Part shown: positions 4,362 through 44,994 of the stretch, piece after piece | Layout of the letters: every line of letters begins with the position of its first letter | Numbering within the stretch: position 1 is the first letter of the stretch | Program-made: the position numbers and the translations under genes | DNA from: Akkermansiaceae bacterium | GTDB taxonomy: Bacteria > Verrucomicrobiota > Verrucomicrobiia > Verrucomicrobiales > Akkermansiaceae | Assembly: GCA_903878115.1 (NCBI GenBank) | Contig: CAIRGO010000254.1 | Coordinates: forward strand, 1 to 49,916 | Direction: 5' to 3' | Length of the DNA stretch: 49,916 nucleotides | Notes under the pieces: generated by a model | The model's database searches: none | What the model saw: only the letters and a program-made list of their open reading frames with translations | What the model was told of the DNA's origin: nothing

Positions 4362-4565
4362 ATTCACCAAGCGCTTGCGGCGATAGAGAATAAAAGCGCC
4401 AGCTAGTGCAGTGATTATCCCCGTGCTTGACTCTGGTATGGCGCCGACAATAATCGGGCTACGGTTGCTTTCGTAAGCCCAATTGCGAATCATCACGCCT
4501 GATGTATTTGCCGTTAGGTTAACCTTAATCCCTTTGTTGACGGGCGCGCCGACATAAATTGGAAC
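4356..4565 (-). pseudogene. Relic of a PEP-CTERM-anchored protein (C-terminal tail only)
   Basis: Read on the minus strand, bases 4565-4356 give 69 sense codons and a TGA. The tail is a textbook sorting signal: VGAIPESST, a hydrophobic stretch of ~16 residues (GIITALAGAFILY), then RRKR. The part before it (VNLTANTSG, then RNWAYES) resembles the end of verrucomicrobial PEP-CTERM beta-sandwich proteins. Directly upstream is an in-frame TAG (4566-4568), and the stretch has no suitable start before the conserved part. I therefore read it as the 3' remnant of a decayed surface or exported protein whose tail would once have been recognised by an exosortase. PES replaces the usual PEP. The frames further upstream show nothing I can assign. 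Confidence 0.6.
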
Positions 4566-4737
4566 CTATTGAATCCGAACAGATTGATGCTTGCTAGGTG
4601 TGATCTAATGTAATGAATGCAACAATTAATGCGAAAAAACAGTTTCTTTTTTCCTTACCAGTGTTAGATTGTTCCGCGCGCTTCATGCTCTAGATAACTT
4701 TAGTTGCATTGATAAAAATCGCGCCTATTTTATCATC
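4362..4737. other. Intergenic region between ispF and ftsH
   Basis: This 376-bp gap holds the minus-strand PEP-CTERM relic (to 4565), about 135 bp of AT-rich sequence in which I see no gene, and the ftsH promoter candidate. A short A/T inverted repeat near 4632-4652 is too weak to call a terminator. Confidence 0.6.
4704..4731 (+). promoter_or_regulatory. Putative ftsH promoter
   Basis: -35 TTGCAT (4704-4709), a 16-bp spacer and -10 TATTTT (4726-4731), with the chosen ftsH ATG only six bases further on. As with the LOG gene, this predicts a very short or absent leader. Confidence 0.4.
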
Positions 4738-21997: not shown

Positions 21998-22942
21998 CTA
22001 AGCCTTACGATGGCGTAGTCGGTCAATGATCACTGCGATCACAATGATCGCGCCAGTGATCACTTCGGTCCATGGGGTAGGGATGCCGTTCATGCCGCAG
22101 CCATTTCTAATGGTGGTCATCAGCAGTGCACCGACTAAGGCTCCCAATACCGAGCCTTCACCACCCGATAGACTGGCGCCACCGATCACCACAGCGGCGA
22201 TAACATCCAATTCCATGCCAGTTGCCGTAGTGGGGTCACCTTGGGATGATTTGGCCATGTTCATGATCGCCGCGAGACCGGCCATGGCGCCGCCGATGGT
22301 ATAGACGAGAATTTTGATGCGAGCCACAGGAAGGCCGCAAAGCGTTGCTGTTAGTTCGTTTGAGCCTACAGCAAAGATATGCCTGCCGAATCGCGTAAAA
22401 CGCAGCATGAGCGAAAATAGAAGCACCAAAGCGAGCATCATCCACACTCCATAAGGCAAGCCAACTCCCCCCATCCATGGCTTCCATGCTGAAACGGTGG
22501 TAGGCAAATTGATTGGCGTTCCATTGGTAGCGACTTTTGCCGCACCGCGAAAAATTTGCATGGTGCCTAGGGTGACGATGAATGGTAATAGTTTCAGTTT
22601 GACCGTCAGACTGCCATTGCAAGCACCACAAAAGGCCCCGAATGCGATGGTAGCAGCAAATATCATCAGCGGATCCATTCCCTTGGTGGTCAGCCAGGCG
22701 CAAAATACACAGCTCAAGGCAATCATCGATCCCACCGATAAGTCAATGCCACCAGAGATGATGATCAAGGTCATTCCGATAGCTGCGGTGGCGACGATGA
22801 CGGTTTGCGTGAGGATATTGAGTGCTACATCGGTTGTGAAAAAGCGTGAATTTAGACTGCCGAAAATGACATAAACAACCAGCAATGCAAGGAACGGACC
22901 AAGCATGGCGAGCATCGAACGGAGGTGGGTAGCTTTGGACAT
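21998..22942 (-). CDS. Sugar ABC transporter permease, RbsC type
   Basis: Inner-membrane permease of the carbohydrate uptake transporter-2 family (ribose, xylose, galactose and similar). It has 314 residues and about 8-10 hydrophobic helices. Diagnostic blocks are IISGGIDLSVGSM (about 63-75), GTMQIFRGAAK, the FAVGSNELTATLCGLPV cytosolic motif that contacts the ATPase, and GGASLSGGEGSVLGALVGA. It sits 21 bp downstream of the partner ATPase. No periplasmic sugar-binding protein is found beside the pair, which is unusual for this family. Co-localisation with a deacetylase and sulfatases suggests that a released sugar is imported. Confidence 0.9.
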   Translation of the reverse strand: MSKATHLRSMLAMLGPFLALLVVYVIFGSLNSRFFTTDVALNILTQTVIVATAAIGMTLIIISGGIDLSVGSMIALSCVFCAWLTTKGMDPLMIFAATIAFGAFCGACNGSLTVKLKLLPFIVTLGTMQIFRGAAKVATNGTPINLPTTVSAWKPWMGGVGLPYGVWMMLALVLLFSLMLRFTRFGRHIFAVGSNELTATLCGLPVARIKILVYTIGGAMAGLAAIMNMAKSSQGDPTTATGMELDVIAAVVIGGASLSGGEGSVLGALVGALLMTTIRNGCGMNGIPTPWTEVITGAIIVIAVIIDRLRHRKA

Positions 22943-22963
22943 GATAAAAAAAGTAATGGTTCG

Positions 22964-24490
22964 TTAGAGATTATCGGATTTTCCAGTTGCAACTCGCATG
23001 ACGTCTTCGGCAGTAATATCCGCCACTGGCACAGCGCGAGTGAGTGTGCCGCGCGACATCACGGCAATGCGATCACAGATGCCAAATAGTTCAGGCAGAT
23101 AACTGGAGATCACAATGACGGCGCGTGGATTATTAGCATCAGTGACGATTTCATTGATCGCTTCATAGATCCGCGCCTTGGCTGCGATATCAATTCCGCG
23201 AGTGGGTTCGTCTAACAAAAGGATATCTACTTCGTGTTCTAACAAACGTGCAAGTGCGGCTTTTTGTTGATTTCCGCCAGAAAGAGCAGAGATTTTTTGG
23301 GTGGCAGCTTGGCATTTGATTCCCAGTTTTTCGATCCACTTCGCGGACCGCTGACTCATAACGGCGGGAGAAACAATTCCATAACGCCCGAAATTTTTTA
23401 ATGAAGAAAGCGTGATGTTATCGGCTATGCTTAGATTTAATGCCAGTCCTTCTTCTTTACGATTCTCACTCAAGATACCAATGCCTTGCTTCCAGCGCTC
23501 AGCGGGTGAGGGGGCGGTAGTGGTGACCGCATGAACCGTGACATCACCTGCAACAATAGGATCAAGTCCAAAAAGAGTGCGCAGAAATTCGGTGCGACCT
23601 GAGCCGACCAATCCAGCAATGCCAATGACCTCGCCTCGATACAAATCTAGGCTGACATTTTTTGGTTTTTCTTTTCCCGCTAGCTGATTGATTTCTAACA
23701 CTTTTTCACCTCGTTGCCGGGAACTGCGCGGATAGAGATCTTTTACATCGCGGCCCACCATTAACGAGACGATTTCCTCTGGACTTGTCGAGGCAACATC
23801 ACGTGTGGCCACCGCGCAACCATCACGCAAAATCGTAAGTCGTGTCGCGAGACGCTTCACTTCTTCGAGGAAATGAGAAATGTAAACGATGGAAATGCCA
23901 GTAGCTTTCAATCGGTCGATCAATAAAAATAGTCGCTCGATGTCTTTCTGTGCGAGAGAAGAAGTCGGTTCATCAAACACTAACAACTTGCAACCCATGG
24001 CTAAGGATCGCCCGATTTCGATCAACTGCTGCACTGAAACAGAAAGATCACCCGCGCGTGCTGTCGGTTTGAGATCAGGGTGATCAAAGTGAGACAATGC
24101 CTCCATCGCTCGTTGGCGCATGGTTTTTCTATCAATAAATGGCCCCATCGTCGGCTCCATGCCAAGCACGATGTTCTCTTCCACTGTGAGATGAGGCGCG
24201 ATTGAGAGTTCTTGATAAATCATTCCCACGCCTTGCGCTCGGGCATCGAGCGGATTTTTAGGGCGATAGATCATGCCGTCAAACAACATTTCTCCGGTGT
24301 CAGCCGCATGCGCTCCGGAGAGGATTTTCATCAAGGTGCTTTTACCAGCTCCATTCTCACCCACTAGTGCGTGCACTTCTCCCGGTAGCACTTCCAAATC
24401 CACCTTGCCCAACGCAATTGTTGGCCCGAAGGTTTTTCGTATGTTCCGCATGATTAAACGATGCGCAGAATGACCAGAACCGTGAAGCAT
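22964..24490 (-). CDS. Sugar ABC transporter ATP-binding protein, RbsA/MglA type (tandem ATPase)
   Basis: A 508-residue protein with two ABC domains in tandem, the hallmark of CUT2 importers. Domain 1 has Walker A VGENGAGKST, signature LSVSVQQ (degenerate) and Walker B LLVFDEPTSSL. Domain 2 has GLVGSGRTEFLR (degenerate Walker A, usual for the family), signature LSGGNQQK and Walker B ILLLDEPTRGID. It should energise the RbsC-type permease that follows. The chosen ATG adds ~14 residues before RNIRKTFGP; the internal Met at residue 14 is an alternative. The gene starts 17 bp after the polysaccharide deacetylase stop, so all three are probably one transcript. Confidence 0.92.
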   Translation of the reverse strand: MLHGSGHSAHRLIMRNIRKTFGPTIALGKVDLEVLPGEVHALVGENGAGKSTLMKILSGAHAADTGEMLFDGMIYRPKNPLDARAQGVGMIYQELSIAPHLTVEENIVLGMEPTMGPFIDRKTMRQRAMEALSHFDHPDLKPTARAGDLSVSVQQLIEIGRSLAMGCKLLVFDEPTSSLAQKDIERLFLLIDRLKATGISIVYISHFLEEVKRLATRLTILRDGCAVATRDVASTSPEEIVSLMVGRDVKDLYPRSSRQRGEKVLEINQLAGKEKPKNVSLDLYRGEVIGIAGLVGSGRTEFLRTLFGLDPIVAGDVTVHAVTTTAPSPAERWKQGIGILSENRKEEGLALNLSIADNITLSSLKNFGRYGIVSPAVMSQRSAKWIEKLGIKCQAATQKISALSGGNQQKAALARLLEHEVDILLLDEPTRGIDIAAKARIYEAINEIVTDANNPRAVIVISSYLPELFGICDRIAVMSRGTLTRAVPVADITAEDVMRVATGKSDNL

Positions 24491-24507: not shown

Positions 24508-25704
24508 TTAGTCAGCGCTTGGCTGATAAGCGGCTTCTTTATCGATGATGAACGTCCAACGCAATGGAGTAGTGATGGTTTTATCATCCTTCGTTTTCCA
24601 TGTGATGGAAACCTGGCAAGAATCACTGCGCAGGCGACGATTGATTTGCCACGTGTAGTGTTTTGATGTCTCATCCCAAACGGCGGGCACGTCACCAAAT
24701 CCAGCCACTTTCATGAGCAAGGTCTCTGGCTTTATATCCGCCACCGTTGATAAATCTGCAGAAATCAAAGGCATGCGTGTATTCACCACGGCCCCAGGCT
24801 CAGGCAAAACAGGGTAGGGGACGATTTGTTTCGGAGCATTGGCCAACCCTGCCGCCGCGACCGCCGAGGCATCACGAAATTCCGTCGCGGTGACAAAAAT
24901 TTTGTCGTAAGTACCTAGGATGATATAGCGCGGCAAGGTATTGCCATCACTGCTGCGCTTAATTTTTCCAGGCAAAACAGTAAACAGGTTCTCGTAGCCA
25001 TATTTCTTGCCCGCGACAAACATTTCATCAGTAGAATATCCTCCAGGATAACAATAAGAATTGATTTTTTGTGAAAATGTCTTTTCTAAAAACACCTTAG
25101 ACTGATTCATTTCTTGCTCAAGGTATTGCTCGTAACTTTTAGTCCCTTTGCGTTTCTGGCTTTTCACGGTGGTGGGAAAATGATGCGACTTCGAGTGATT
25201 ACCTAAGGTCATGCCATTTTTTTGCATTTCACGAATCATTGCCAAAGTCATCGATTTGCCACCTACATCGACGTATTTTGTGTAAAGATACACTGTAAAT
25301 GGATAGCCAAACTCTTTTAATATCGGATAGGCATCGGTATAAACACTCAACCAGCCATCATCGATGGTGATCAATACGGATTTCGGTGCGAGTTCCTTTT
25401 CGCCTTTTCTCCATGCCGTAAAATCAGCCATGCTAACCACAGTTAATCCCTGATCTTTGATTGCCTGCATCTGCGCGCGAAATTTGGTCGTGTTGATGCG
25501 CATCTCGGTTTCCTTGAGGGTGTTGGAAAAATCGTGATAACCGAGAACCGCCACCCGCACACCGTCATCGGGAATGCTCACCGGAGCAGGAGCAAGAGGC
25601 ACGGCCTTCGGAGCATCCTCTGTGCTGACTGGGGGAGCCTGCTGCGCCAGAAGAGTGCCGCAAGAAAATGAAGCTAGGGTGAGAGCAAGTAACAGCGAAC
25701 GCAT
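24508..25704 (-). CDS. Exported polysaccharide deacetylase (NodB/CE4 homology)
   Basis: Signal peptide MRSLLLALTLASFSCGTLLA, a Pro/Ala-rich linker, then a NodB-type domain (about 48-270). Visible motifs: GYHDFS at the first strand; TIDDG (Asp115 and Asp116, base and metal ligand); GNHSKSH (metal His170 and His174); and YCYPGGYSTDEM, the third conserved region. The last ~110 residues form a separate beta-rich region (PGAVVNTRMPLISADLS...), an Ig-like or substrate-binding extension. The enzyme should remove N- or O-acetyl groups from a polysaccharide or peptidoglycan outside the cytoplasm. It heads the operon with the sugar ABC ATPase and permease, so a role in sugar supply is more likely than wall editing, although this is inference. 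Confidence 0.88.
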   Translation of the reverse strand: MRSLLLALTLASFSCGTLLAQQAPPVSTEDAPKAVPLAPAPVSIPDDGVRVAVLGYHDFSNTLKETEMRINTTKFRAQMQAIKDQGLTVVSMADFTAWRKGEKELAPKSVLITIDDGWLSVYTDAYPILKEFGYPFTVYLYTKYVDVGGKSMTLAMIREMQKNGMTLGNHSKSHHFPTTVKSQKRKGTKSYEQYLEQEMNQSKVFLEKTFSQKINSYCYPGGYSTDEMFVAGKKYGYENLFTVLPGKIKRSSDGNTLPRYIILGTYDKIFVTATEFRDASAVAAAGLANAPKQIVPYPVLPEPGAVVNTRMPLISADLSTVADIKPETLLMKVAGFGDVPAVWDETSKHYTWQINRRLRSDSCQVSITWKTKDDKTITTPLRWTFIIDKEAAYQPSAD

Positions 25705-28335: not shown

Positions 28336-30768
28336 TTACGCAGAGGGTCCTTTGGGTTCGCTGGAGGTCTTTAATTGCGGTGCTGTCTGCGGTTTGTTAG
28401 GAATGATCTCCTCGATCGCATCTGCAGGAACCCAGCCTCTTGTTTGCGTGGCAAAGGCAATATAGACCCAGCGGTCGCTGCGCTGAATGATGCGGCAAAG
28501 CGAACCAGCAGGTGCATCGATCACTTCCGCAGAGGTTCGCGAGGCATCGGCGTAGGCGACAGCTTTTTCTGATACAATAATTGCTTGCTCGCTATAGGGT
28601 GCAAAGGTTGCATCGTCTGGATAATAATGCAGTGCGGCAGCAGCGGCTAGCAATAAAAAGGGACAAATGACGCATGATACAACCGCATAAATGCGCAATT
28701 TGCTGCCTCGGCTAGTCGCAGGAAACACCAATACACCTAAAACAATTAGCCACAGGCTAACAAAAAGCGTATTTTGCACCCAAGCGAGTGGGATTTTCGT
28801 TAGTGTGTATTGGTAATCCGGCCGTTTGATCGTAAGCGCGCCGAATTTTCTTTCGAGAAAACGCAGATTTTGGCGAGCCTCTAGCAATCCTGAATCGGCG
28901 ATCAGGGCCCGCCGATAATAAAGCGCCGCATAACCTGGCGAACTCATGCGATAGCTGGCGTTACCGATGTTGTAGAGTGTTTGTGAAGTGAGTTGCTCAT
29001 AGGGGCCTGCAGATAACCACGCGGTGATTGCATCTTTGTATTGTCCTTCGGCGTAAAGTTGATACCCGTCTTTTTGCACCTCTGGTTTTGCTTCTTCGGC
29101 TTGCAAGCCGCTAGAAAATATAGCCGCGAATATCATCAGCGAAAAAGCTAATTTGCGTAAGGTTTTTAAAATCATGGATCTTTGGGCTGGTGGTATCGGT
29201 GAGGTGTCTGGTTGTGGATGAAAACAAAGGGCATCGCGTTGTTTTAGTATATTCTGAATTTCGCTTTGTTGAGATTTTTCCGGCAACCATGTTTCGATAA
29301 ATCGGCCAACACTTCGATAAAATGAAACCATGTCATTCGGTGATTTTTCGAGTGATTTCCATGCTTCTTTCCTTGCTGCCAAGTGAGGATTTGAAGCGAA
29401 TCGATAGGCATAACGACGATAAACAATTGCAGCAATCAAGGTCAGCAAAAGAACTAACGGAACCAGATGCCATAGATGCGGGAGATCCATGGTCTTGCTC
29501 GGGTCGATCAACGGGCCCGTTTTGATCACTCCTAAAATATCCGTCATCCGTTCAACTGGCAAATTTGCTGCTTGTGGGGGAGCATCGATGATTGAAACGT
29601 TTGGGTTTGTGGAGGGAGTAACTTTTAACGGAACTGCTGCCGTGGTCAACGATTTGTAGGATTCGGTGATAGGGTCAAAATAATCCAAGCGAAATGGAGG
29701 AATCATGGTTTGTCGTTCCGTGGGACGCATAAACTGTTTAAAGACCACAGTTCCTTTCTGGGTTCTGCGTTCCTCGCCTTGTTCGCTGCGCGTTGCATCG
29801 TAGAGCTTCCAACCGTCTGGATCAGTGAGAAAGGGGGCCTCGAGAGAGTCGAGGTTGCCTCGACCTGAAACTACTAAATCGACGTTCACAGGGTCACCTT
29901 CGCGGATCTCTGTGTCAGCGGCATTGATGCCGAGATTGAGGGTGAAATCACCCACCGCATTTCGAAAACCAGGTGGCGGATTTGCAGGCAATGGTTTGGC
30001 ATCCAATTCAAGCTTCGAAGCGGCAAGATTCAGCGCTACGAGATTTTGTTCGACGCCAAATTGTCCCACGCTCGACTGAACCGTAATGAGCCGAATTTTA
30101 GCACCACCGATCGAGACCTTTCCTGATTTGCTAGCTGCCATCGTGCTCGGATAGGATACTGCTTGGTATTGCGCTCCTAACAAAATTGCGCTGCCTATTT
30201 GCGGGCGTGGTTCGAACCGCCATGCTGTGATGCCATCGCGGTCGAAATCTGGAATACCCCATTCTTCCACGCGCTGGTTGGCAGGGAAGTAGATTTTCAT
30301 TTCCACAGGAATGATTTCCCCTTCATACGGATTGGTTTTTGTTGTGCGGAACATTGCTGCATAACGCGTCGTCGATCCGTTAATCACAATTTCAGTGAAG
30401 GGAATTTGTGTTGCGTCAAAAACTTCAAAATCCAAGGCGTCGCTGGCGATTTTCTCAGTGCCTACTTGAAATTTCAACTCAGGAATCTGATGCTTGCCGA
30501 CTTCAAAACTTGTCAGTGCAAATTGATAAATATAACCCAATTTCCGACCCGGTAAAATTGTGGTATTAGGCCCGCCGAAACCACGCGCCTGCAAGGTGAC
30601 GCCGGGAATGGCTGGTAATTGCAATTCTTCGGGAGGATTCACATCTGTCAGTGTGATTTCCAATACGGCTTGTTCGCCGCGTGCAAGAAATTGACTCGAC
30701 AGCGCTACATCGATCGATGCTGCTCGCAGCAAACACGTGAAGCTCAGGAGAAAAAATAGATATTTCAT
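28336..30768 (-). CDS. BatD-BatE fusion protein
   Basis: One open frame of about 810 residues joins two proteins that are usually separate. Residues 1-530 are BatD: a signal peptide (MKYLFFLLSFTCLLRAA), repeated beta-sandwich domains rich in GDPV-type turns, and a membrane helix (WHLVPLVLLLTLIAAIVY) with a short cytosolic tail. From Met532 an internal hydrophobic stretch (MILKTLRKLAFSLMIFAAIF) resembles an old BatE signal peptide. BatE then follows: TPR units (YQLYAEGQYKDAI, YNIGNASYR), two membrane helices, and a terminal SH3-like domain (APAGSLCRIIQRSDRWVYI). The ATG at 30768 begins the signal peptide; a GTG at 30804 overlaps the upstream stop (GTGA) and may couple translation. It is the last gene of the MoxR/Bat operon. 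Confidence 0.88.
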   Translation of the reverse strand: MKYLFFLLSFTCLLRAASIDVALSSQFLARGEQAVLEITLTDVNPPEELQLPAIPGVTLQARGFGGPNTTILPGRKLGYIYQFALTSFEVGKHQIPELKFQVGTEKIASDALDFEVFDATQIPFTEIVINGSTTRYAAMFRTTKTNPYEGEIIPVEMKIYFPANQRVEEWGIPDFDRDGITAWRFEPRPQIGSAILLGAQYQAVSYPSTMAASKSGKVSIGGAKIRLITVQSSVGQFGVEQNLVALNLAASKLELDAKPLPANPPPGFRNAVGDFTLNLGINAADTEIREGDPVNVDLVVSGRGNLDSLEAPFLTDPDGWKLYDATRSEQGEERRTQKGTVVFKQFMRPTERQTMIPPFRLDYFDPITESYKSLTTAAVPLKVTPSTNPNVSIIDAPPQAANLPVERMTDILGVIKTGPLIDPSKTMDLPHLWHLVPLVLLLTLIAAIVYRRYAYRFASNPHLAARKEAWKSLEKSPNDMVSFYRSVGRFIETWLPEKSQQSEIQNILKQRDALCFHPQPDTSPIPPAQRSMILKTLRKLAFSLMIFAAIFSSGLQAEEAKPEVQKDGYQLYAEGQYKDAITAWLSAGPYEQLTSQTLYNIGNASYRMSSPGYAALYYRRALIADSGLLEARQNLRFLERKFGALTIKRPDYQYTLTKIPLAWVQNTLFVSLWLIVLGVLVFPATSRGSKLRIYAVVSCVICPFLLLAAAAALHYYPDDATFAPYSEQAIIVSEKAVAYADASRTSAEVIDAPAGSLCRIIQRSDRWVYIAFATQTRGWVPADAIEEIIPNKPQTAPQLKTSSEPKGPSA

Positions 30769-30800
30769 AAATAAGTATGGCTTAAAAAATGGACGAATGA

Positions 30801-32783
30801 TCACCAGTCTTTTTCAGGACGACGATACTGGTAGGTTCCTTCCGCGACGACCCCACGTTGCAAATCAGCGTTTTCATTGAGTTTGCGCATGGCGTGCTGT
30901 TCTTTGGTTTCTTCAGGACGTTTATCTTTGCCGTGAGTGTTGTTAGGATCGGGTTTTTCACCTTCGGGAGTTTTTCCTTCTTTATCTCCCTGATCACCTT
31001 TGTCTTTTGGCTCTTGGCCATCTTTCCCCTTTTCGCCAGGCTTGTCACCTTCTCCTTCGCCTTCGCCCTCTTGGTCTCCAGGCTCTTGACCCTCACCTTC
31101 GCCTTCGCCCTGATCTTGCCCACCCATTTGTTGCTGCATTTCTTTTTGCTGATCTTCCATTGCTTTGCGCAATTTCTTTAAGTATTCGTAGGCGACTGTT
31201 TTGTTTTGTTGCGCATCGGTCAGTTGCTGATCAATGCTCAGTGCTGATTGTGAGTGGCGCACCGAATCAGACCAGTTCAACAAAATGGACTGCATATTAC
31301 GAAACCCTTCCGATGGTTTATTGGGCTCAGATTTATCATCCTTCATCCAATCGTCCATTCGCTCTTTTAGTAGGGCTTCAAAACGCGCTGGACCGTCAGT
31401 TTCGCCGGGGTAGGTTTCTCCTTTGGAAAGCGATTGCCAGCCTAATTGAAATAAAGTATTGCCCATACCTTGATGCGCAGCTGCTCTAATTGCTGGCTCA
31501 TCTTGTGCTAGAGCGTGGGAATATGCGGCGCGGGCTTCAGGGAACTCGCTTAGACGATAATCGGCCGTTGCTTTGCCTAACATGATGCCAGCATAAGCAT
31601 CGGTTTCGGGTGTTTCTAGGCGTGATAATTGTTCAAACTGTGAACTGGCTTCTTTGTAATCTTTTGCCTCGAACGCCGCTCGTGCGGTGGCCAGTGTGAT
31701 CGGCGGTTCTTCGCCATTAGAGAATGAGCTTAGTAAAAGCATCATTACGATTGTGGCCGCTGCTGATTTAGCAGATGCATTCACGGAAGTTAGACCACGC
31801 CAGCGAGTGCCAAGAAGTATTGCGATCATAAGAAATAGAACTGCGGGAAACATAAACCATTGATACAAATCCGTCGCTAACATTTTTTCAGTTCCTTTCA
31901 ATTCAAAGGTATCCAAATCTGACACTGCTGCTGTGATCATGGCGGGAATATCACTTGCTGATTGAGCGAGTGCAAAGCGACCACCACACTGGGAAGCAAA
32001 ATTTTGCAATGTGGCGGACTGCAGTCTACTGATGATCACTTCTCCTTTGAGATCACGAAATTTTCCATCCGCCGCTTCAGGGTCCGGGATGAATCCACCA
32101 TCATCAGTGCCTATACCAATCGTAAAGGTGTATGTGCCTGATTTTTTGATCTCGCTTACTGTGCCGAGTAGCTCTGGCGAATGCTCTTCACCATCGGAAA
32201 GAATGATCATGCCATTGTTGCTTTGAGCAGTTTCTTTCAACGTGGCGATTGCCATTTTCACTGCAGCGCCCACATCGGAACCGCCATTGGGGATGGAATC
32301 AAAATCCAACTGTTCCACGGTTTCACGCACAGCTCCATGATCATTTGTGAGCGGTGCAAAAAGAAAGGAGGTTCCGGCAAACCCGACCACTCCGATACGA
32401 TCATTCGGCAGTGTTTCCAGTAATTCATAAATCAGTGCTTTTGCTTGATCTAGGCGTGATGGTTTGAGGTCGGCCACTTTCATCGAGCGCGATAGATCCA
32501 GCACGATAATGAGGTTCCTACCGCGTGAGCTTTCGGTTTTTACGGAGTTAGTGCTTTGCAAACGTGCAATCGATAAAATCAACATCAGCGCAGCAATCAT
32601 CAGTGAGGCGAATCCCAGCCATCTCGGCCATGAGGAACCACTTTTCAGGAGGTTCTTGCGCAAACGATCGGCGACAAATTCAGCCCATTGTCCACGCTTA
32701 CGTCGCAAAGCAATCAGCGCTACGACTACCAGCAAAGGCAGCGCGAGCAGCAGTAATAGCAAGTATGGTTGAGCGAATGACAT
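30801..32783 (-). CDS. BatB-BatC fusion: VWA membrane protein with TPR and acidic Gly/Glu-rich tail
   Basis: About 660 residues. Helices at 6-27 and about 57-75 flank a short cytosolic part, then a von Willebrand factor A domain (about 88-290) with MIDAS DLSRSM (Asp96, Ser98, Ser100), a Thr in FAPLTND and DGEEHS, so metal binding looks intact. A closing helix (FMFPAVLFLMIAILL) ends the BatB part. A second hydrophobic segment (TIVMMLLLSSFSNG) looks like a former BatC signal peptide and leads to TPR units (about 360-540). A low-complexity stretch of Gly-Glu, Lys and Asp (about 560-635) and a conserved-looking tail (RRPEKDW) finish it. Bat proteins are thought to form a periplasm-facing complex linked to envelope stress tolerance. 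It overlaps the batDE GTG candidate. Confidence 0.88.
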   Translation of the reverse strand: MSFAQPYLLLLLLALPLLVVVALIALRRKRGQWAEFVADRLRKNLLKSGSSWPRWLGFASLMIAALMLILSIARLQSTNSVKTESSRGRNLIIVLDLSRSMKVADLKPSRLDQAKALIYELLETLPNDRIGVVGFAGTSFLFAPLTNDHGAVRETVEQLDFDSIPNGGSDVGAAVKMAIATLKETAQSNNGMIILSDGEEHSPELLGTVSEIKKSGTYTFTIGIGTDDGGFIPDPEAADGKFRDLKGEVIISRLQSATLQNFASQCGGRFALAQSASDIPAMITAAVSDLDTFELKGTEKMLATDLYQWFMFPAVLFLMIAILLGTRWRGLTSVNASAKSAAATIVMMLLLSSFSNGEEPPITLATARAAFEAKDYKEASSQFEQLSRLETPETDAYAGIMLGKATADYRLSEFPEARAAYSHALAQDEPAIRAAAHQGMGNTLFQLGWQSLSKGETYPGETDGPARFEALLKERMDDWMKDDKSEPNKPSEGFRNMQSILLNWSDSVRHSQSALSIDQQLTDAQQNKTVAYEYLKKLRKAMEDQQKEMQQQMGGQDQGEGEGEGQEPGDQEGEGEGEGDKPGEKGKDGQEPKDKGDQGDKEGKTPEGEKPDPNNTHGKDKRPEETKEQHAMRKLNENADLQRGVVAEGTYQYRRPEKDW

Positions 32784-32795
32784 GATGGGAAATTG

Positions 32796-33821
32796 TTAAG
32801 CTGTGGGAGGTGGCGAGAGAGCTATCAAAAGAAGCGACAGCAGTGCAAAAAATAGCGCAGGATACGCAAACCACAAAAATAATTCGTGATCTTCCGTGAC
32901 GGTGTAAGTTTTGCGTTCAGTTTTTTCTAACTTATCGATGGTCTGAAAGGTGTCTTTTAACTCGGCATTGGTTTGCGCCCAGTAATGCTCGCCACCTGTA
33001 AGCCTTGATACTTCTTGAAGAGTTGGTAGATCGAATTCTTGGCGCGGAAAACGTTGAATATTGCTGCTGACGCGCCCGTCTTTGGTGCCGATCGCAACGG
33101 CATAAATTTTGATATTCAAATCAGCAGCGTATTTCGCGGCATCAATGGGGGAAATTTTTCCTGAATTATTAGCTCCATCAGTAATTAGCACGACGATTTT
33201 CGACTTCGCATCCCTTGCATTGAGCCGTGACGAAGCCGCTGAAATGGCGGAACCAATCGCTGTTCCTTGCTCGCGAATGGTGCCATCGCCATAGCCGTTG
33301 CGGTGGTTTAATTTTACCCGTTGCAGGCCAGCTAAGAGCCAATTGTGATCCAGCGTGATTGGGCTAATGTGATATGGTTGACCTGAGAAAACCACTAGTC
33401 CGATGCGGTCGTCAGGTCGATTGCTTACGAAGCTGGTGACCACTTCTTTCGCGGCGTCTAGACGCTGAACAGGCATTCCGTCCGGCGTTTTAAAGTCATC
33501 GATCTCCATCGAAAGCGATAAGTCGAACGCGATCATGATATCGATCCCTGAAGCTGTGCGATTTTGAAACTCCAAACGATTGACCGGTCGAGCTAGTGCA
33601 ATGATCGCCAATACCAAAGAAACGAAAGCGAATGGCAGCGCGAATGAGCCAGGTCCTTGGCGCATCTTTTGGCCAAGTGACACAAGAACATTCAGTGTAG
33701 AAAACGTAAGCGCAGCCTCCGCACCACGACCACGTCGTAAAAACAACAAAAATAACGCTGGTATCAAGAGTAACAGCCAATAGGGCGAGACAAAGACGAA
33801 ATGTTTTAGTTGATCAAACAT
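32796..33821 (-). CDS. BatA: VWA-domain membrane protein
   Basis: 341 residues from ATG 33821 (MFDQLKHFVFVSPYWLLLL); a TTG 21 bases upstream is unlikely. It has an N-terminal helix, a short basic loop (RRGRG), a second helix (ALPFAFVSLVLAIIALA), then a VWA domain with MIDAS DLSLSM, the Thr in SPITLDH and the Asp in LITDGANNSG. A C-terminal helix anchors it again (LFLWFAYPALFFALLSLLLIAL). The arrangement matches BatA, which is paired with BatB in this operon type. The domain faces the periplasm and the MIDAS looks complete, so it probably binds a protein partner via a divalent metal. It lies between the DUF4381 gene and the batBC fusion. Confidence 0.88.
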   Translation of the reverse strand: MFDQLKHFVFVSPYWLLLLIPALFLLFLRRGRGAEAALTFSTLNVLVSLGQKMRQGPGSFALPFAFVSLVLAIIALARPVNRLEFQNRTASGIDIMIAFDLSLSMEIDDFKTPDGMPVQRLDAAKEVVTSFVSNRPDDRIGLVVFSGQPYHISPITLDHNWLLAGLQRVKLNHRNGYGDGTIREQGTAIGSAISAASSRLNARDAKSKIVVLITDGANNSGKISPIDAAKYAADLNIKIYAVAIGTKDGRVSSNIQRFPRQEFDLPTLQEVSRLTGGEHYWAQTNAELKDTFQTIDKLEKTERKTYTVTEDHELFLWFAYPALFFALLSLLLIALSPPPTA

Positions 33822-33838
33822 GGAAGCGAATACTGCGG

Positions 33839-34345
33839 TCAAATTTTGATAACGTGAAGGTGATCAATCAGCTCGATGGCCTGTGGAATAAGTCCAGAAA
33901 GGTCACGTGATTCCTCCACTGGTGCATACTTGAGGCGAGCGAGTTGTTGGAAATGTGTGCTAATTTGCTGGCGTGAAGGCTCTGGCAAACGAGCTAGCGC
34001 ATCGTGACGACTTAAAAATTCCTCATGAGTTTCAAATATCGACGAATCGCTAAATACGAGAGCTAGGTAATGACGAATTGTTAGAGAGACTGTCGTTGCC
34101 AGCGTGACCGGATTTTGGATGCTTTTTGCTTTCTCCAACTCCGTCATCGCTTCGTGATAGGCCTTTGCTCGGATCGATTCCGCAGTGGCCACTTTACTCC
34201 TTGCTAAGCGAACGAAAAACAAAACAAGCGCCACCGAAAACAATGCAATCATCAACCATGCCCACCATGGAAGTGCAGGGTGGGGGATAAATTTTTCCAC
34301 CTCCGGAATATCACGCAGGTCAAGTTTGGGAGTGTTTTCGTCCAT
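33839..34345 (-). CDS. DUF4381 family membrane protein of the Bat operon
   Basis: 168 residues. The N-terminal ~28 residues are polar with LRDIPEVEKFIPHPALPWW, followed by one membrane helix (WAWLMIALFSVALVLFFVRLA), then a soluble, helical cytosolic domain (AKAYHEAMTELEKAK, ... LARLKYAPVEES). The Pro-Trp-Trp entry to the helix and the LARLKYAP segment are typical of DUF4381 proteins, which sit between DUF58 and BatA genes in this operon type. The molecular role is unknown; position suggests an assembly or membrane-adaptor function. Its start overlaps the DUF58 stop, and its stop is 18 bp before the chosen batA ATG. Confidence 0.8.
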   Translation of the reverse strand: MDENTPKLDLRDIPEVEKFIPHPALPWWAWLMIALFSVALVLFFVRLARSKVATAESIRAKAYHEAMTELEKAKSIQNPVTLATTVSLTIRHYLALVFSDSSIFETHEEFLSRHDALARLPEPSRQQISTHFQQLARLKYAPVEESRDLSGLIPQAIELIDHLHVIKI

Positions 34346-35238
34346 CAGTTAGATCGTTTGCGTATACGGCGTTTGAGCAGAGCGTGTAAGGGCGGAATAG
34401 GATCGCTATCCGTGCTTAGATCTGCACAATCGATTCCGTGTTTTTTGAAAATGGCGAGCACGCCTTCATGTTGGCGACGCATTAATTTTTCGTATGCCAT
34501 GCGTAGATTTGAGTTCGAGGTGTTCACCGATGTTTGCCAGCCCGTTTCTGGGTCAGCGAGGGTGACTCGACCCGCACGAGGAAGTTTTTTCTCTAATGGA
34601 TCAGTGATGCGGATGGCAATGGTGTCGTGCTTTGCTGATAATTTCCCTAAAGGTTTTTCCAAAGGATCAGTGAGGAAGTCAGAAATGAGAAACACTAACG
34701 ATTTGCGCGGCAGCGCTTGGATTAAAGTGGTGCACGCCGCTACCATGGATGTCCCTGGATTCGTGGGTTCTGCGAGTAAAATTTCTCTGACCAAGCGCAA
34801 CAAATGGCGTGATCCTTTTGCTGGGGGAATGAAAAGAAGCGACTCAGCAGCAAATAAGAGCAATCCGCATTTATCGCCGTTTTGGATCGCTGAAAAGCCT
34901 ACTACGGCGGCTGTTTCTGCGGCAACTTCACGTTTGGAATAGTTGACCGATCCGTAGTTGGCAGAACCGCTGACGTCGACGGCAATGATGACATTTAATT
35001 CGCGCTCTTCACGGAATTTCCTAATATAAGGAGTGCCCATGCGCGCGGTGACATTCCAGTCGATAAAACGAATTTCGTCACCGTGCTGATATTCACGGAA
35101 ATCATCAAAATCCAGACCTTGTCCTTTGAACGATGATTGATATTCGCCAGAAAATGATTCTCTGACCAAGCGCCGCGCTTTAAGCTCGAGCTTGCGCACG
35201 CGAACCATCATTTCCTCGATCTGTTCGTCAGTGGTCAT
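34345..35238 (-). CDS. DUF58 domain protein
   Basis: About 297 residues, soluble, from ATG 35238 (MTTDEQIEEMMVRVRKLE). The DUF58 signature is present: RGDEIR-like (HGDEIRFIDWNVTARMG), then IRKFREERELNVIIAVDVSGSA. The DVSGS stretch is the start of a VWA-like fold with a nearly complete MIDAS. The segment VFLISDFLTD and the final Arg/Lys-rich tail (LKRRIRKRSN) follow. DUF58 proteins accompany MoxR ATPases and are taken to be their partners or clients. It overlaps both neighbours' coding ends, indicating tight translational coupling. Confidence 0.9.
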   Translation of the reverse strand: MTTDEQIEEMMVRVRKLELKARRLVRESFSGEYQSSFKGQGLDFDDFREYQHGDEIRFIDWNVTARMGTPYIRKFREERELNVIIAVDVSGSANYGSVNYSKREVAAETAAVVGFSAIQNGDKCGLLLFAAESLLFIPPAKGSRHLLRLVREILLAEPTNPGTSMVAACTTLIQALPRKSLVFLISDFLTDPLEKPLGKLSAKHDTIAIRITDPLEKKLPRAGRVTLADPETGWQTSVNTSNSNLRMAYEKLMRRQHEGVLAIFKKHGIDCADLSTDSDPIPPLHALLKRRIRKRSN

Positions 35239-35249
35239 GAAGAAAAAAA

Positions 35250-36233
35250 TCAAGGGACGGGAATTTTCGCCAACAACCGAGTGATAATGGTATCAGTAGT
35301 GATGTTTTCCGCTTCGGCTTCATAAGTGACCAAAATCCGGTGACGGAGTACATCCAGCACCATGTCCTTCACATCTTGCGGCGTTACATAAGCACGACCA
35401 CACATAAAGGCACGAGCTCGAGCACTGAGCGCTAGATTGATGGTGCCACGAGGTGAAGCGCCTGCACGAATAAGATTTTTCAGCGGTGCATCATAGTTTA
35501 CCGGTTCGCGTGTGGCGTAGATGATTTGCACGATGTATTGTCTGATGGCTGGGTCGATGTAAACCGAGTTCACAAGAGTGCGCGAAATCGCAATTTGTTC
35601 AGGAGTTGCCACCGTCTGAGTCACGTAGCTTGGCGCGGAAGTAGCCATGCGGTCAAGAATCTGCAACTCTTCTTCCGGAGTGGGGTAATTGACAGTTACT
35701 TTTAATAGAAAGCGATCCAACTGCGCTTCGGGCAACTGATAGGTGCCTTCTTGGTCGATGGGGTTTTGCGTGGCGAGCACCAAGAATGGCTCGGGCAATT
35801 TGTAAGTTTTGTCGCCCAGAGTGACTTGGCGTTCTTGCATCGCTTCTAACAATGCCGATTGCACTTTAGCTGGTGCGCGGTTGATCTCGTCCGCAAGAAT
35901 GAGATTATTAAAAATGGGTCCTAATTTGGGAGCAAAAGAACTGGACTGCGGATTGTATACCATGGTGCCTAACAAATCGGCAGGAAGCAGATCGGGAGTG
36001 AACTGGAAGCGTGAAAAGCTAGTATGCAAACAGCCTGAGAGAGCTTTTACAGCTAGTGTTTTCGCCAATCCAGGAACACCTTCTAACAGAATGTGACCAT
36101 TGCAGAGGAGCCCGATGAGTAGGCGATCTACGAGGCGATCTTGGCCAACTAACAGCTGTGCCATTTCGGTTTTTACTGCTTGAATCCAGTGACTGGTTTC
36201 GGCGATGCGTGCTTGCGTTTCTTCGATGGTCAT
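35250..36233 (-). CDS. MoxR-family AAA+ ATPase
   Basis: 327 residues with Walker A EGVPGLAKT, Walker B NLILADEINRAP, sensor 1 ATQNPIDQEGTYQLPEAQLDRF (a shared MoxR block) and a C-terminal lid with ASPRGTINLALSARARAF. MoxR proteins act as chaperones that insert cofactors or remodel VWA proteins. As the first gene of the run moxR, DUF58, DUF4381, batA, batBC and batDE it probably drives assembly of the Bat complex. The 116-bp region upstream has no clear promoter; it contains a 7-bp inverted repeat (CTTGATT, 36286-36292, and AATCAAG, 36302-36308). Confidence 0.94.
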   Translation of the reverse strand: MTIEETQARIAETSHWIQAVKTEMAQLLVGQDRLVDRLLIGLLCNGHILLEGVPGLAKTLAVKALSGCLHTSFSRFQFTPDLLPADLLGTMVYNPQSSSFAPKLGPIFNNLILADEINRAPAKVQSALLEAMQERQVTLGDKTYKLPEPFLVLATQNPIDQEGTYQLPEAQLDRFLLKVTVNYPTPEEELQILDRMATSAPSYVTQTVATPEQIAISRTLVNSVYIDPAIRQYIVQIIYATREPVNYDAPLKNLIRAGASPRGTINLALSARARAFMCGRAYVTPQDVKDMVLDVLRHRILVTYEAEAENITTDTIITRLLAKIPVP

Positions 36234-39092: not shown

Positions 39093-39737
39093 ATGTTTAA
39101 AAATCTTATTTTTGATTGGTCGGGCACCCTCGTTGATGATCTAGGTCCTACGCTTGAGGCCACGAATGCTGTATTGCAATTGCATGGGAAAGACACCATG
39201 AACAAAGAGGAATTTCGTCGTCGTTTTCGGCTACCCTACTCGGAGTTTTATGAAGAGGTCTTGCCTGGTATACTTCTCGGAGAATTAGAAAACCATTTTC
39301 GGCATGCCTTTGCAAATTCCACTGTCCCCGTTACAGTTCTTCCTCATGCTCGTGAAAAACTTGATTGGTGTCAAAATAACAATGTGCGCTGTTTTGTTCT
39401 TACCAGCATGGATCAAAAAACATTTGAAGCTCAATTAGACGATTTATTCATGCGCCAGTTTTTCGAAGCCACTTATTCTGGTGTGCTCGACAAACGCCAT
39501 GTGATTGGGGAATTAATCGATACCCATAATCTGCTCATTGACGAAACCGCTTTTGTGGGAGATATGATTCACGACGTGGTCACCGCGAAGCATGGAGGCG
39601 TTTCTAGTGTGGCGGTTCTGACAGGATACACTCATCACGATGTGTTATTAACAGTTTCGCCCGATTGGATTGTTGATGATTTATCAGTGTTCCAAGCGAT
39701 GATGCATGATGCTAAACAAATGCGTTCGTATGAATGA
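39093..39737 (+). CDS. HAD-superfamily hydrolase with DWSGT motif I
   Basis: 214 residues. Motif I is FDWSGTLVDD: nucleophile Asp8 is present, but the position that is normally the second Asp (general acid/base) is Ser10. Motif II is VLTSMD, the motif III Lys is probably in DKRHVIG, and motif IV is FVGDMIHDV. A helical cap (about 18-85) of the phosphoglycolate-phosphatase type separates motifs I and II. The DWxGT form is known from phosphonoacetaldehyde hydrolase (DWAGT), but the cap lacks an obvious Schiff-base Lys that I can place. A small phosphometabolite phosphatase remains the default call. It overlaps folB by 8 bp, so a folate-linked dephosphorylation is an attractive guess. Confidence 0.78.
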   Translation: MFKNLIFDWSGTLVDDLGPTLEATNAVLQLHGKDTMNKEEFRRRFRLPYSEFYEEVLPGILLGELENHFRHAFANSTVPVTVLPHAREKLDWCQNNNVRCFVLTSMDQKTFEAQLDDLFMRQFFEATYSGVLDKRHVIGELIDTHNLLIDETAFVGDMIHDVVTAKHGGVSSVAVLTGYTHHDVLLTVSPDWIVDDLSVFQAMMHDAKQMRSYE

Positions 39738-40077
39738 AATTCAAATCAATGGTCTGCGTTTGCTTTGTCGCGTAGGAGTGCCTGACGAAGAGTTGGCTCA
39801 GCCCCAAGAATTGCGCATGCATCTGACTTTATGCCCGACAACAGATTGGCAATACGTCGATGATCGCATAGAAAATACCATCGATTATGCTGCGGTTGTC
39901 GCTGAGATAGAATCACTGGCAGCAGATCATCCGCGACGTCTTATAGAAACATTGGCGCAGGATGCGGCAAATTTTTTGTTAGAAAAATACCCACTAAAGA
40001 GTGTTAAAATTGTCGTAGAAAAATTTATACTACCGCAAACGAATTTTGTCGCGGTAGTTGTGGAAATACACCGTTAA
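39730..40077 (+). CDS. folB: Dihydroneopterin aldolase
   Basis: 115 residues from ATG 39730 (MNEIQINGLRLLCRVGVPDEE), inside the end of the HAD gene. The family start (GLRLLCRVGVPDEE, cf. GLRCFAYHGVFPEE) and NTIDYAAVVAEIE are visible, as is ETLAQDAANFLL with the conserved Glu; the C-terminal strand has VVEKFILPQ (usual VxKPxAP). It cleaves dihydroneopterin to 6-hydroxymethyl-dihydropterin in folate synthesis, as an octamer. It is convergent with the split TPR gene, whose stop lies 1 bp beyond the folB stop. Confidence 0.9.
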   Translation: MNEIQINGLRLLCRVGVPDEELAQPQELRMHLTLCPTTDWQYVDDRIENTIDYAAVVAEIESLAADHPRRLIETLAQDAANFLLEKYPLKSVKIVVEKFILPQTNFVAVVVEIHR

Positions 40078-40078
40078 A

Positions 40079-40852
40079 TCACTCTTTCTCTTTCGACAAT
40101 CCACCATAGAAGCTTTCGATGTAGCCGAATTCAATCAATGTGTCTTGCCAGGGAGCGATCACGGCAGGATTTGCAAACACCCGGCCTGCCATAGCAACCC
40201 ACTCTTCCGCTATAATCTTATCCTTATCGCGATAGCAAAGTGTGGCTTGAGCGTAATAATAATAGGGCGAATCATCGTCGATGGGTTAGTATTTTTCTGC
40301 CTGTTTTGCCGCATCGTCAATTTTACCTAAGGCAATATTGCACAGCAGAATTTTAAACTCAATCAAGCGCCGCGTAGGAATTTCATTCACGGGAAGTAGC
40401 TTTAGCACGGCTGTTAATTTCGCCAGGCAGTCGGTCCATTTCTTGGTGACAAAATCCATTTCAGCCAGATTGAACAAAATTGAAGATGCTCCAGGAGAGA
40501 GGGCGTCGGCTTTATTGAAGTTTTCACGAGCTTGCGTAAAATCCCGAAATTCAACAAAGCAACTTCCCAATAAATTAAAGATATCTGAGCTCTTGTCGAA
40601 AATTTTTCGCGCTTCGTGAATCTCGTCCAAACACTCAAAGATTCGCTTCTGATTGAACAATCGCGTCGCCTCACCAAAGTGTTTGTAGAAATCTTCACGC
40701 TTCTGCTCAGGTAAATTTAAAAACTCCTGCTGTTCTGCGGTGAGCTCGACTTTTTTCTTTGCGTCGCCTAAAGGAATCACTTCTTGCGCAGCTAGAAATG
40801 ATTCCGATGAAATCAATAGTAGGGTAGAAAGTAATAATGTTCTCATCGCCAT
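40079..40852 (-). pseudogene. Exported TPR protein interrupted by one in-frame TAA
   Basis: The frame runs from ATG 40852 (signal peptide MAMRTLLLSTLLLISSESFLAAQ) through TPR-like repeats (DIFNLLGSCFVEFRDFTQARENF, SSILFNLAEMDF) to a TAA at 40286-40288. It then continues in the same frame for 68 more codons to a TGA at 40079-40081. The continuation is clearly protein-like (SPYYYYAQATLCYRDKD, APWQDTLIEFGYIESFYGG) and the repeat pattern carries straight through, so the TAA is a single nonsense change in a gene of about 257 residues, or a sequencing error. The truncated product of 188 residues may still be exported. It ends 1 bp from folB on the opposite strand. Function unknown; probably a periplasmic scaffold. 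Confidence 0.75.
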
Positions 40853-40905: not shown

Positions 40906-41481
40906 TCACGTGTATAAATGTTGCTGAATGCAATAATCCAATACTCTCGGAGAAAGCCACGCGGGGTCGATAAAATGCTTCGATGATTGATCGCGGATCG
41001 CGCTGGCTGAAGCAGGATGCTCTCCACTGAGCGCGCGCATTTGATAACCCTCTTGGGCGCGTGGGGCATCGCCTCGGGCGAACACCAGAAAGGTCACTGA
41101 TTTTGCCAAAAGTTCAGGATTTCTCCACCTCGGCAGGGCATTCCATTGATCGCAACCCATGATCCAAAACAGCTGTGCATCTGGCCAAAGATTTCGAAAA
41201 TATGCCACGGTAAGATAACTATAAGATGGAGCAGGCGTGATTAGGTCGTAATCGTTTACCGAAATACTCGGTTGATCAGCTATGGCTAATTGTATCATCG
41301 CCAAGCGATCAGCGGCAGAACTCGTCGGCAATCCTTGCTTGTGCGGTGAAGTTCGGCACGGTAGAAAAACGATTTCATCAAGTTTCTCCTGCTCGATCGC
41401 CTGTTTTGCAATGAACAGGTGACCCTCGTGAATCGGATCAAATGTCCCGCCAAACAAAGCGATCTTGCGTGATGCGTTCAC
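40906..41481 (-). CDS. nadD: Nicotinate-nucleotide adenylyltransferase
   Basis: 191 residues. Nucleotidyltransferase HxGH motif as GGTFDPIHEGHLF, then LPCRTSPHKQG, an internal FWIMGCDQWNALPRW segment and the final ISxT/S-type region (HPASASAIRD, with Ala where many have Ser/Thr). It adenylates nicotinate mononucleotide in NAD synthesis. The GTG start overlaps the stop of the upstream DR2241-like gene (GTGA), giving translational coupling. rsfS, often next to nadD, is absent. Confidence 0.93.
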   Translation of the reverse strand: MNASRKIALFGGTFDPIHEGHLFIAKQAIEQEKLDEIVFLPCRTSPHKQGLPTSSAADRLAMIQLAIADQPSISVNDYDLITPAPSYSYLTVAYFRNLWPDAQLFWIMGCDQWNALPRWRNPELLAKSVTFLVFARGDAPRAQEGYQMRALSGEHPASASAIRDQSSKHFIDPAWLSPRVLDYCIQQHLYT

Positions 41482-43079: not shown

Positions 43080-44336
43080 CTACTTGAGTTTTTCCAATGC
43101 TTGTAACCGTTGTCCTAAGGGCGGGTGAGAGTAATCTAACGCAATGCGCAAAGGATGCGGGGTAGGGTGCGACAAATTATCAGTGGTCAGCTTTTTCAGG
43201 GCAGTCATTAGAGTTTCTGGCGCGCCGGTGTGCTCTGCAGCGTAAGCGTCAGCCTCGAATTCGTGGGTTCTTGACCATTTGTTAGACGCGATGCCTAACA
43301 ATCGTGACACAGGTGAAAACAATAACGAGAAAAGAACCAAACCGACATGTGGAGAAATCGTCGCGACGCCAAATGCATCAAATAGCATGCGCGCAAAAAC
43401 TCCTTGAGGATCGGTGGCGAGACCGATGAGGTAAAATAGAACTGCCGATTGCAAAATCCCTGCGACGAGTCGTTTCGGCATGTGATGGCAACGAAAATGT
43501 CCGATTTCGTGAGCTAAAATCGCAACTAGTTCATCGGTAGAATGTTTTTCGATAAGCGTATCAAACAAAGCGATTTTCTTTAGCTTCCCAAAGCCTGTGA
43601 AAAAAGCATTGGCCTTGGTTGATCGTTTCGATCCGTCCATCACGTAAAGCCCAGCCAGCGGGAAATTGCATTTTTTTGCCATCGCTTCGATCGCACTACG
43701 CAGTTCTCCTTCTGGCATCGGTTGGAATTTATTGAACAACGGCAGAATCACGGCAGGAGCAAGCCACATCATCAGAATTTGAATCGCGGAAAATGCAACC
43801 CACGCCCATAACCATGCGTTCGGCACAGTGAGGAAAATCCATAAAATCAGCGCAGCGATGGGCATCCCGATGACTCCGCCCAACAGAATCCCTTTGACTT
43901 GATCGAGAGCAAATAATGATGGTGTCGTTTTATTAAATCCAAATTTTTCTTCGATGACAAAAGTATCATAAATAGCGAGTGGTAAGGACAACAAGTGATT
44001 CCCTAAAAAAAGCAATCCGAGAAATGCGCATCCCGCATAGATTGGGGAATCTGGTAGCCAACTGCGCGTGAGTTCATCTATCCAAGAAAAACCTCCCAGG
44101 AACCAAAACACCAATAATGTCATTAGCGAAAAACTTGATTCAAGGATCGAAAACTTCGCGGAAACGGTAGAATAGGCACGGGCTTTGTCATATTTTTCCT
44201 CGGTCCATAGATCTTTCAAGTGCTCGGGAATCATTGGCGCGAAGGCTTTTTGATTTAAAATCGTCACGATAAAATCGAGCTTCCACATTAGGAAAAATAT
44301 GAATAAAATGCCTACCCCCATGAAATTTAAATCCAT
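43080..44336 (-). CDS. M48-family (Ste24/CAAX-type) membrane metalloprotease
   Basis: About 418 residues with several membrane helices. Zinc motif HEIGH (in ILAHEIGHFRCHHMPKR) and the third ligand in THEFEADAYA. The FVIEEKFGFNKTTP segment and the KRSTKANAFFTGFGKLKKIALFDTL block mark the Ste24 type. Such proteases clip or degrade membrane and prenylated-like proteins in quality control. The frame is open to ATG 44399; I start at 44336 (MDLNFMGVGILF), just before the first helix, because the plus-strand gene overlaps the longer form. The true start is uncertain between these. It is divergent from the lipoprotein-like gene. Confidence 0.88.
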   Translation of the reverse strand: MDLNFMGVGILFIFFLMWKLDFIVTILNQKAFAPMIPEHLKDLWTEEKYDKARAYSTVSAKFSILESSFSLMTLLVFWFLGGFSWIDELTRSWLPDSPIYAGCAFLGLLFLGNHLLSLPLAIYDTFVIEEKFGFNKTTPSLFALDQVKGILLGGVIGMPIAALILWIFLTVPNAWLWAWVAFSAIQILMMWLAPAVILPLFNKFQPMPEGELRSAIEAMAKKCNFPLAGLYVMDGSKRSTKANAFFTGFGKLKKIALFDTLIEKHSTDELVAILAHEIGHFRCHHMPKRLVAGILQSAVLFYLIGLATDPQGVFARMLFDAFGVATISPHVGLVLFSLLFSPVSRLLGIASNKWSRTHEFEADAYAAEHTGAPETLMTALKKLTTDNLSHPTPHPLRIALDYSHPPLGQRLQALEKLK

Positions 44337-44350
44337 AGAAGCTAAAACGG

Positions 44351-44994
44351 TGAAATCTGTTAGTTTGTCCATCATATCGCGTGCGCTCATCATCACCATC
44401 GCGGTGGGAATGTCAAACTGTGCGAGCTTGATTGCAAAAAAGAATACCTACGGAGCCAGCGGTCCAGCGGCTAAGATCAATGGCGCGGAGGTGCGTCTTC
44501 AGGTCAACCCACAAGGAGCGGAAAATGGAGCCTTTTCGCTCAGCGCGATGGTCGTCTCCACCACGGTGGCGACGATGGAAGGGCCATTTCGTTGGCGCGT
44601 GGAAGCAATCGGCGACTCGAGTGTCCACCAATCGATTGTGATTCATCGGATTTTCACCAGCACCGAAAAATCAAAGCGTAAGGAATGGTATCCCACTGCG
44701 AAATTATCAAAACGAGCGGATTTTCGGGAAGTCAAAGAACGCCTGGGCAAGTCTCGTGCTCGTTATGAAATCCCCGGACTGCTGCAAGTAACTTCCGCAA
44801 AAGACGGAAAACTAAGCATTCTCTGCGATATTTCGATTTGGAAATACGGCAATCATTACGAAAGAAAAATGGTGAAATTCTTGCTCGACCCCGCGCAAAA
44901 ACGCCAAGACGAATTTATTTTCTTGCCCGTAGAATTAGTGAAATCATTTGGTAAGGATCTGCAAGACATGGAAGATCCCAGCTGGGATCAATAA
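44351..44994 (+). CDS. Putative lipoprotein of unknown function
   Basis: About 214 residues from GTG 44351; an ATG at 44299 would overlap the M48 gene. The N-terminus has a basic residue, a hydrophobic stretch (SRALIITIAVGM) and SNCAS, a poor lipobox (Asn before Cys), so lipidation is uncertain. The remainder is beta-rich and basic: GPFRWRVEAIGDSS, HQSIVIHRIFTSTEKSKRKEWYP, ISIWKYGNHYERKMVKFLL and FIFLPVELVKSFGKDLQ. No catalytic motif is visible. It ends at a bidirectional terminator shared with the RRM gene. Confidence 0.6.

Follow-up and report, generated by a model that had tools for sequence, protein, structure and literature searches.

The window analysed here, a stretch of 49,916 nucleotides from an Akkermansiaceae genome assembly (contig C254; host genome of 4.41 Mb in 331 contigs, 95.3% complete), contains a minus-strand TPR gene that is cut by one in-frame TAA and continues beyond it in the same frame. 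The question raised by this locus is whether the gene is a very recent pseudogene, is rescued by stop-codon readthrough, or is intact in the organism and broken by a sequence error, the three readings put forward in a preliminary description of the stretch. Translation of the minus strand from 40852 to 40079 (window:40079-40852:-) yields 188 codons of which the first is ATG, the TAA, 68 codons, and a TGA. The 188-codon open reading frame, the lone TAA at 40286-40288, and the open 68-codon continuation were thereby confirmed, and all previously given coordinates proved right. The terminal TGA (40079-40081) also lies, as had been claimed, beside the stop of the convergent folB-like gene (TAA, 40075-40077, plus strand), with 1 base between them. 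The features concerned are the following.

40286..40852, minus strand: TPR gene under the standard code, from ATG 40852-40850 to the in-frame TAA; the 188-aa product has TPR repeats behind a hydrophobic leader at its N terminus.
40286-40288, minus strand: premature in-frame TAA, occupying a near-invariant Asp column of the homologues.
40079..40285, minus strand: same-frame continuation of 68 codons plus the terminal TGA, matching the conserved C-terminal end of the homologues.
40906..41481, minus strand: nadD-like gene, the nearest one upstream of the TPR gene; name read from sequence.
39730..40077, plus strand: folB-like gene, convergent with the TPR gene and uninterrupted; name read from sequence, start codon chosen by hand.

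The codon usage of the TPR gene (40286..40852) is gene-like in a coding-potential scan, and its product is presumably exported, judging from the hydrophobic leader. The tail encoded beyond the TAA, APWQDTLIEFGYIE, contains 0 further stops. Re-initiation after the TAA was considered and rejected, the first ATG, GTG, or TTG being tail codon 32, too late for a separate protein to regain the conserved stretch. Compensated frameshifts were likewise rejected, with no gap needed at the stop when the gene is aligned to eight genus mates.

A query read through the stop, with X in its place, matches 227 of the 260 family genomes and 46 of the 57 relatives, the window's own genome being included in both counts, and in the family search the near relatives align through the stop, up to query residues 250-257. 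For instance, the homologue in genome G007 is similar from end to end (62% identity over query residues 17-253; E = 3.7e-103). Most close homologues are ~250-290 residues long, versus 188 for the window product, and among the family-search matches listed, an internal stop occurs only in the window's own row. A second TAA in the family, in genome G049, was considered as a shared recoding site and rejected, because the alignment puts it at the natural end of that homologue. In tblastn comparisons with six genus mates (L031-L036), identity is 71-74% in the tail versus 54-58% in the body. The preliminary description had taken the continuation for protein and had named two findings that would speak against the split reading, namely, homologues ending at the same point as the short product and a tail lacking homologues. 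Both were sought, and the reverse was found: homologues continue through the stop, conservation is higher in the tail than in the body, and all conserved tail columns are kept. As judged from this alignment of sequences, the continuation is real coding sequence rather than a chance open frame. No relatives of the TPR gene were found in viral contigs.

The closest likeness of the window gene is to a presumably exported TPR protein found in Akkermansiaceae and related families, with which it shares a similar length and the motifs FNQKRIFE, PWQDTLIEFGYI, and SFYGG. Six genus mates also share its convergent folB neighbor. The window gene lacks the single uninterrupted frame of this family owing to the TAA at 40286-40288, and the window copy ends after residue 188. 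In Pfam, the gene obtains weak TPR matches, the best of which is TPR_2 (E = 6.9e-06; 26.2 bits, below the cut-off of 27), and an NCBIfam search with the window product and an intact relative returned no model at or above cut-off. Foldseek retrieved generic TPR proteins, with PilF (2ho1_A) as the best PDB match by E-value (E = 3.1e-05; TM score of 0.54 by query length). Membership in the PilF/PilW group of type IV pilus TPR proteins was nonetheless rejected: the NCBIfam PilW model scores 31.8 bits with the intact relative and 17.4 bits with the 188 residues of the window, against a cut-off of 154, and the likeness to these pilotin-type proteins (PDB 2ho1 and 2fi7) is confined to the generic TPR fold, at 13-16% identity.

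To locate the stop on the fold, we used a model of the uninterrupted L031 homologue (genome G007), built on a 10-sequence alignment (mean pLDDT of 85.5) and consisting of a row of helices of the TPR type. The stop position falls in the loop following helix 179-186, and three helices lie beyond it (198-209, 213-227, and 230-243), carrying the conserved end motif. Mean pLDDT is 91-97 in the blocks covering residues 191-240, drops to 79 in 241-250, and is 42 over the final eight residues. In this predicted structure, the lost part corresponds to the last three helices of the fold, namely, the final pair of TPR helices plus the one at the C terminus, and the conserved stretch PWQDTLIEFGYI-SFYGG is located in them.

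The stop column was examined in a 62-sequence alignment of the window gene and 61 homologues fetched as loci, a set weighted to the best matches rather than to all matching genomes; L031-L037 were excluded from it as they represent the same contigs as L002-L007 and L012. The records of L031, L032, and L033 are titled Akkermansia muciniphila, yet they are the same contigs as genomes placed in the window's genus; we suspect that this species label is loose and take genus g3, with its many small complete genomes, as Akkermansia proper. At the stop column, the 61 homologues carry Asp (47), Thr (6), Gly (3), Asn (2), Glu (1), Ser (1), and Lys (1), and the 29 nearest aligned relatives (8 from the window's genus, g1, and 21 from genus g13) have Asp or Asn without exception. 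None of the 61 carries the stop, and the disabling change is thus absent from these relatives, as in a recent pseudogene. The codons of 52 homologues are two changes away from TAA, those of 7 are three changes away, and those of the remaining 2, both outside the window's genus, are one change away. All 8 genus-mate codons are two changes from TAA and 0 are one change away, so that, with a genus-mate codon as the starting point, neither a single mutation nor a single error suffices, and a second change is needed either way.

Set against the 29 relatives, the window gene has retained all 30 invariant columns of the body and all 17 of the tail. Of the near-invariant columns, it has retained 43 of 45 in the body and 27 of 27 in the tail, both body mismatches being conservative (Lys to Gln and Glu to Asp). 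Its ratio of tail to body identity, 1.235, falls between the extremes of the eight genus mates (1.20-1.36). With a fixed tree, the branch leading to the window gene measures 0.269 in the body and 0.228 in the tail, giving a ratio of 0.85 compared with 0.91 for the whole tree; as single-branch ratios scatter from 0 to 3.5, this test has low power, and the value signifies that no inflation is seen. In neutral simulations, the chance of so intact a tail is 0.52 at 0.01 substitutions per site, 0.04 at 0.05, and 0.07% at 0.1, implying that, if the sequence has been neutral since the stop arose, the event would date to less than ~0.05 substitutions per site ago. The stop would accordingly be very young, if it is real and inactivating. 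Little or no decay downstream of the stop is what characterizes a recent pseudogene, and a sequence error predicts the same pattern.

The neighborhood of the gene suggests that it can be lost. Six genus mates (L031-L036) share the order of the folB, HAD-like, DUF721-like, and ferredoxin-like genes beside the TPR gene. The folB gene is downstream and convergent in these six loci and was not found there in L037-L040; nadD is upstream on the same strand in L032, L033, L035, and L037-L040, was not found upstream in L031, L034, and L036, and is on another contig in G007. In G004, a genome of the same genus, the ferredoxin-like, DUF721-like, HAD-like, and folB genes are kept and the TPR gene is absent beside folB (5 kb searched), with no match to it anywhere in the genome (92% complete). 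The gene has likely been lost in G004, and it is, by this reasoning, probably dispensable in the window's genus. Among the matchless family genomes listed, 19 of 20 belong to genus g3, suggesting that loss outside g3 is rare; 13 further matchless genomes fall outside that list. As separate observations, nadD is also absent beside folB in G004 (L143), with no nadD match genome-wide, and a 571-codon frame lies beside folB there, on the same strand as folB. In L039, at ~4315-4886, a nadD-like gene matches in two pieces, in different frames, that meet at ~4566-4569, suggestive of a frameshift or of faulty assembly in that record.

Farther along the minus strand of the window, at 28336-36233, stands a row of genes whose translations suggest, by eye, a MoxR ATPase, a DUF58-type protein, two von Willebrand A proteins, of which the second has TPR-like repeats, and a BatD-like protein; together they look like a Bat/MoxR-type cluster. 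At 21998-24490 (minus strand), a pair of genes resembles, by eye, RbsA/RbsC, a sugar-type ABC ATPase with its permease; the next gene upstream, at 24508-25704, is polysaccharide-deacetylase-like rather than an obvious binding protein.

The explanation that we prefer, with a confidence that goes no further than even, is a nonsense allele of very recent origin that yields a truncated and probably inactive protein. Under this explanation, a normal, family-wide gene for an exported TPR protein would have gained a nonsense codon in this lineage or strain, where the allele may be fixed or segregating; translation would end after residue 188, with loss of the three helices that follow this point. Because the missing helices carry the highly conserved PWQDTLIEFGYI-SFYGG stretch, the truncated product would probably be inactive, making the gene a pseudogene in its first stage. 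The stop is shown in the assembled sequence, the collections having one genome per species; its presence in the organism and the failure of the 188-residue protein to work are inferred. In favor of such an allele are the undamaged tail, with every near-invariant column in place, the distance of two changes from all eight genus-mate codons, which is beyond one read error, and the evidence from G004 that the gene can be lost. Against it, the absence of decay in both halves is equally expected from an error, and most of the family (227 of 260 genomes) keeps the gene. The gene resembles young bacterial pseudogenes caused by single nonsense mutations, a class treated by Belinky et al. (PMC7918605), in having one in-frame stop, a clean constrained frame, and uninterrupted homologues; it differs from them in being known from the assembly alone and in the two changes that separate the stop from all 8 genus-mate codons.

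The strongest competitor, whose probability we put somewhat short of even, is that the stop arose in assembly, consensus building, or base calling, or from a consensus of mixed strains; the real gene would then be intact and encode ~257 residues. An error would account for two halves without decay, and the genome is fragmented. The rarity of lone stops points the same way, as isolated errors would be rare too. The coding-potential scan covered 33 readable stretches (539,227 bases, window included; 8 all-N stretches were skipped) and gave 402 gene-like segments, 381 of them with the stop read. It yielded 123 same-frame continuations of at least 25 codons, of which 93 were set aside because they overlapped a gene-like segment or had a start within the first 12 codons, a filter that misses lone stops whose tail has such an early start. 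Among the 30 left, five outscore the TPR tail, and apart from these five no continuation but the TPR tail scores as clearly protein-like; the five were rejected as lone stops, with starts at codon 13-28 and lengths of 268-592 codons, and read by eye as the next genes. The case ranked next below the TPR tail is a weak one of 31 codons in L116. Before filtering, high-scoring continuations included two in the G+C-rich L102 and one in L118, which are missing from the filtered rows listed. A second convincing lone stop was not found in the 539-kb sample. Against an error stand the Asp or Asn in all 29 relatives from g1 and g13 and the eight genus-mate codons two changes off: one wrong base suffices only if the species already had another residue, and the 2 of 61 codons that qualify are both outside the genus. 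Moreover, nine neighboring frames of the window with matches in genus-mate loci are all open; a tenth, at 43080-44399, had no match in the fetched stretches. Of the base-calling error suggested earlier, what stands is that a sequence error remains viable; what does not is that a lone wrong base would be enough, as a second difference is needed. On these codon comparisons, the two-change distance weakens the simple base-calling idea without removing error as such. Of the three original readings, the recent pseudogene and the sequence error survive about equally, with the nonsense allele slightly likelier than an assembly error, and readthrough is unlikely.

Readthrough of the stop, or its decoding by a UAA-reading tRNA, would yield some full-length protein and leave the gene functional, an outcome that we regard as highly improbable. 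The tail does look constrained, and in Belinky et al. (PMC7918605), readthrough is suggested to be frequent at in-frame stops in bacteria, many of which are described as short-lived and probably deleterious in the long term. In PMC11126739, readthrough peptides are reported for 0.23% of the E. coli genes ending in TAA, with higher readthrough at low temperature; in the E. coli reporters of that study, no stop leaks less than TAA, whose mean signals are 0.01-0.05% of wild type. The window stop recurs in 0 of the 61 homologues aligned and is therefore no conserved site of recoding, and TAA is still in use as a stop, being the commonest one in the genome sample (215 of 381 gene-like segments in 539 kb). 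ARAGORN named 37 of 38 tRNA hits, the 38th lying at a contig end, from the 150 of 157 first-look candidates that were scored, and there was no UAA-reading anticodon among the 37; the set is incomplete, lacking a named Asp, Ile, or Trp tRNA, and a suppressor may lie on a missing piece. Around the stop, no unusual RNA structure was detected (z = +1.07, with 171 of 200 shuffled sequences folding as well or better), and there is no sign, in the sequences sampled, of an unusual genetic code. That UAA would be read through efficiently here, giving short and full-length forms of a conserved exported protein, is less probable still. A functional, lineage-specific short form of 188 residues is also very unlikely, since its well-kept body (43 of 45 near-invariant columns, both differences conservative) would have to work without the last three helices and the highly conserved end motif, and a long-dispensable tail should have decayed, which this one has not.

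In-frame stops are reported by Belinky et al. (2021, PMC7918605) to be widespread in bacterial genes, often in sequence under purifying selection, with sources that include annotation artefacts, sequencing errors, pseudogenes, and functional genes; among the listed matches of a literature search on pseudogenes and premature stops in Verrucomicrobia, there was nothing on this TPR gene. Whether it is a nonsense allele or an error, the stop would be an ordinary kind of event that leaves the wider picture unchanged. For annotation, it carries a warning, as the gene will be called as 188 residues in a family where most close members are much longer. For the organism, the nature of the stop decides whether one exported TPR protein works in one uncultured species.
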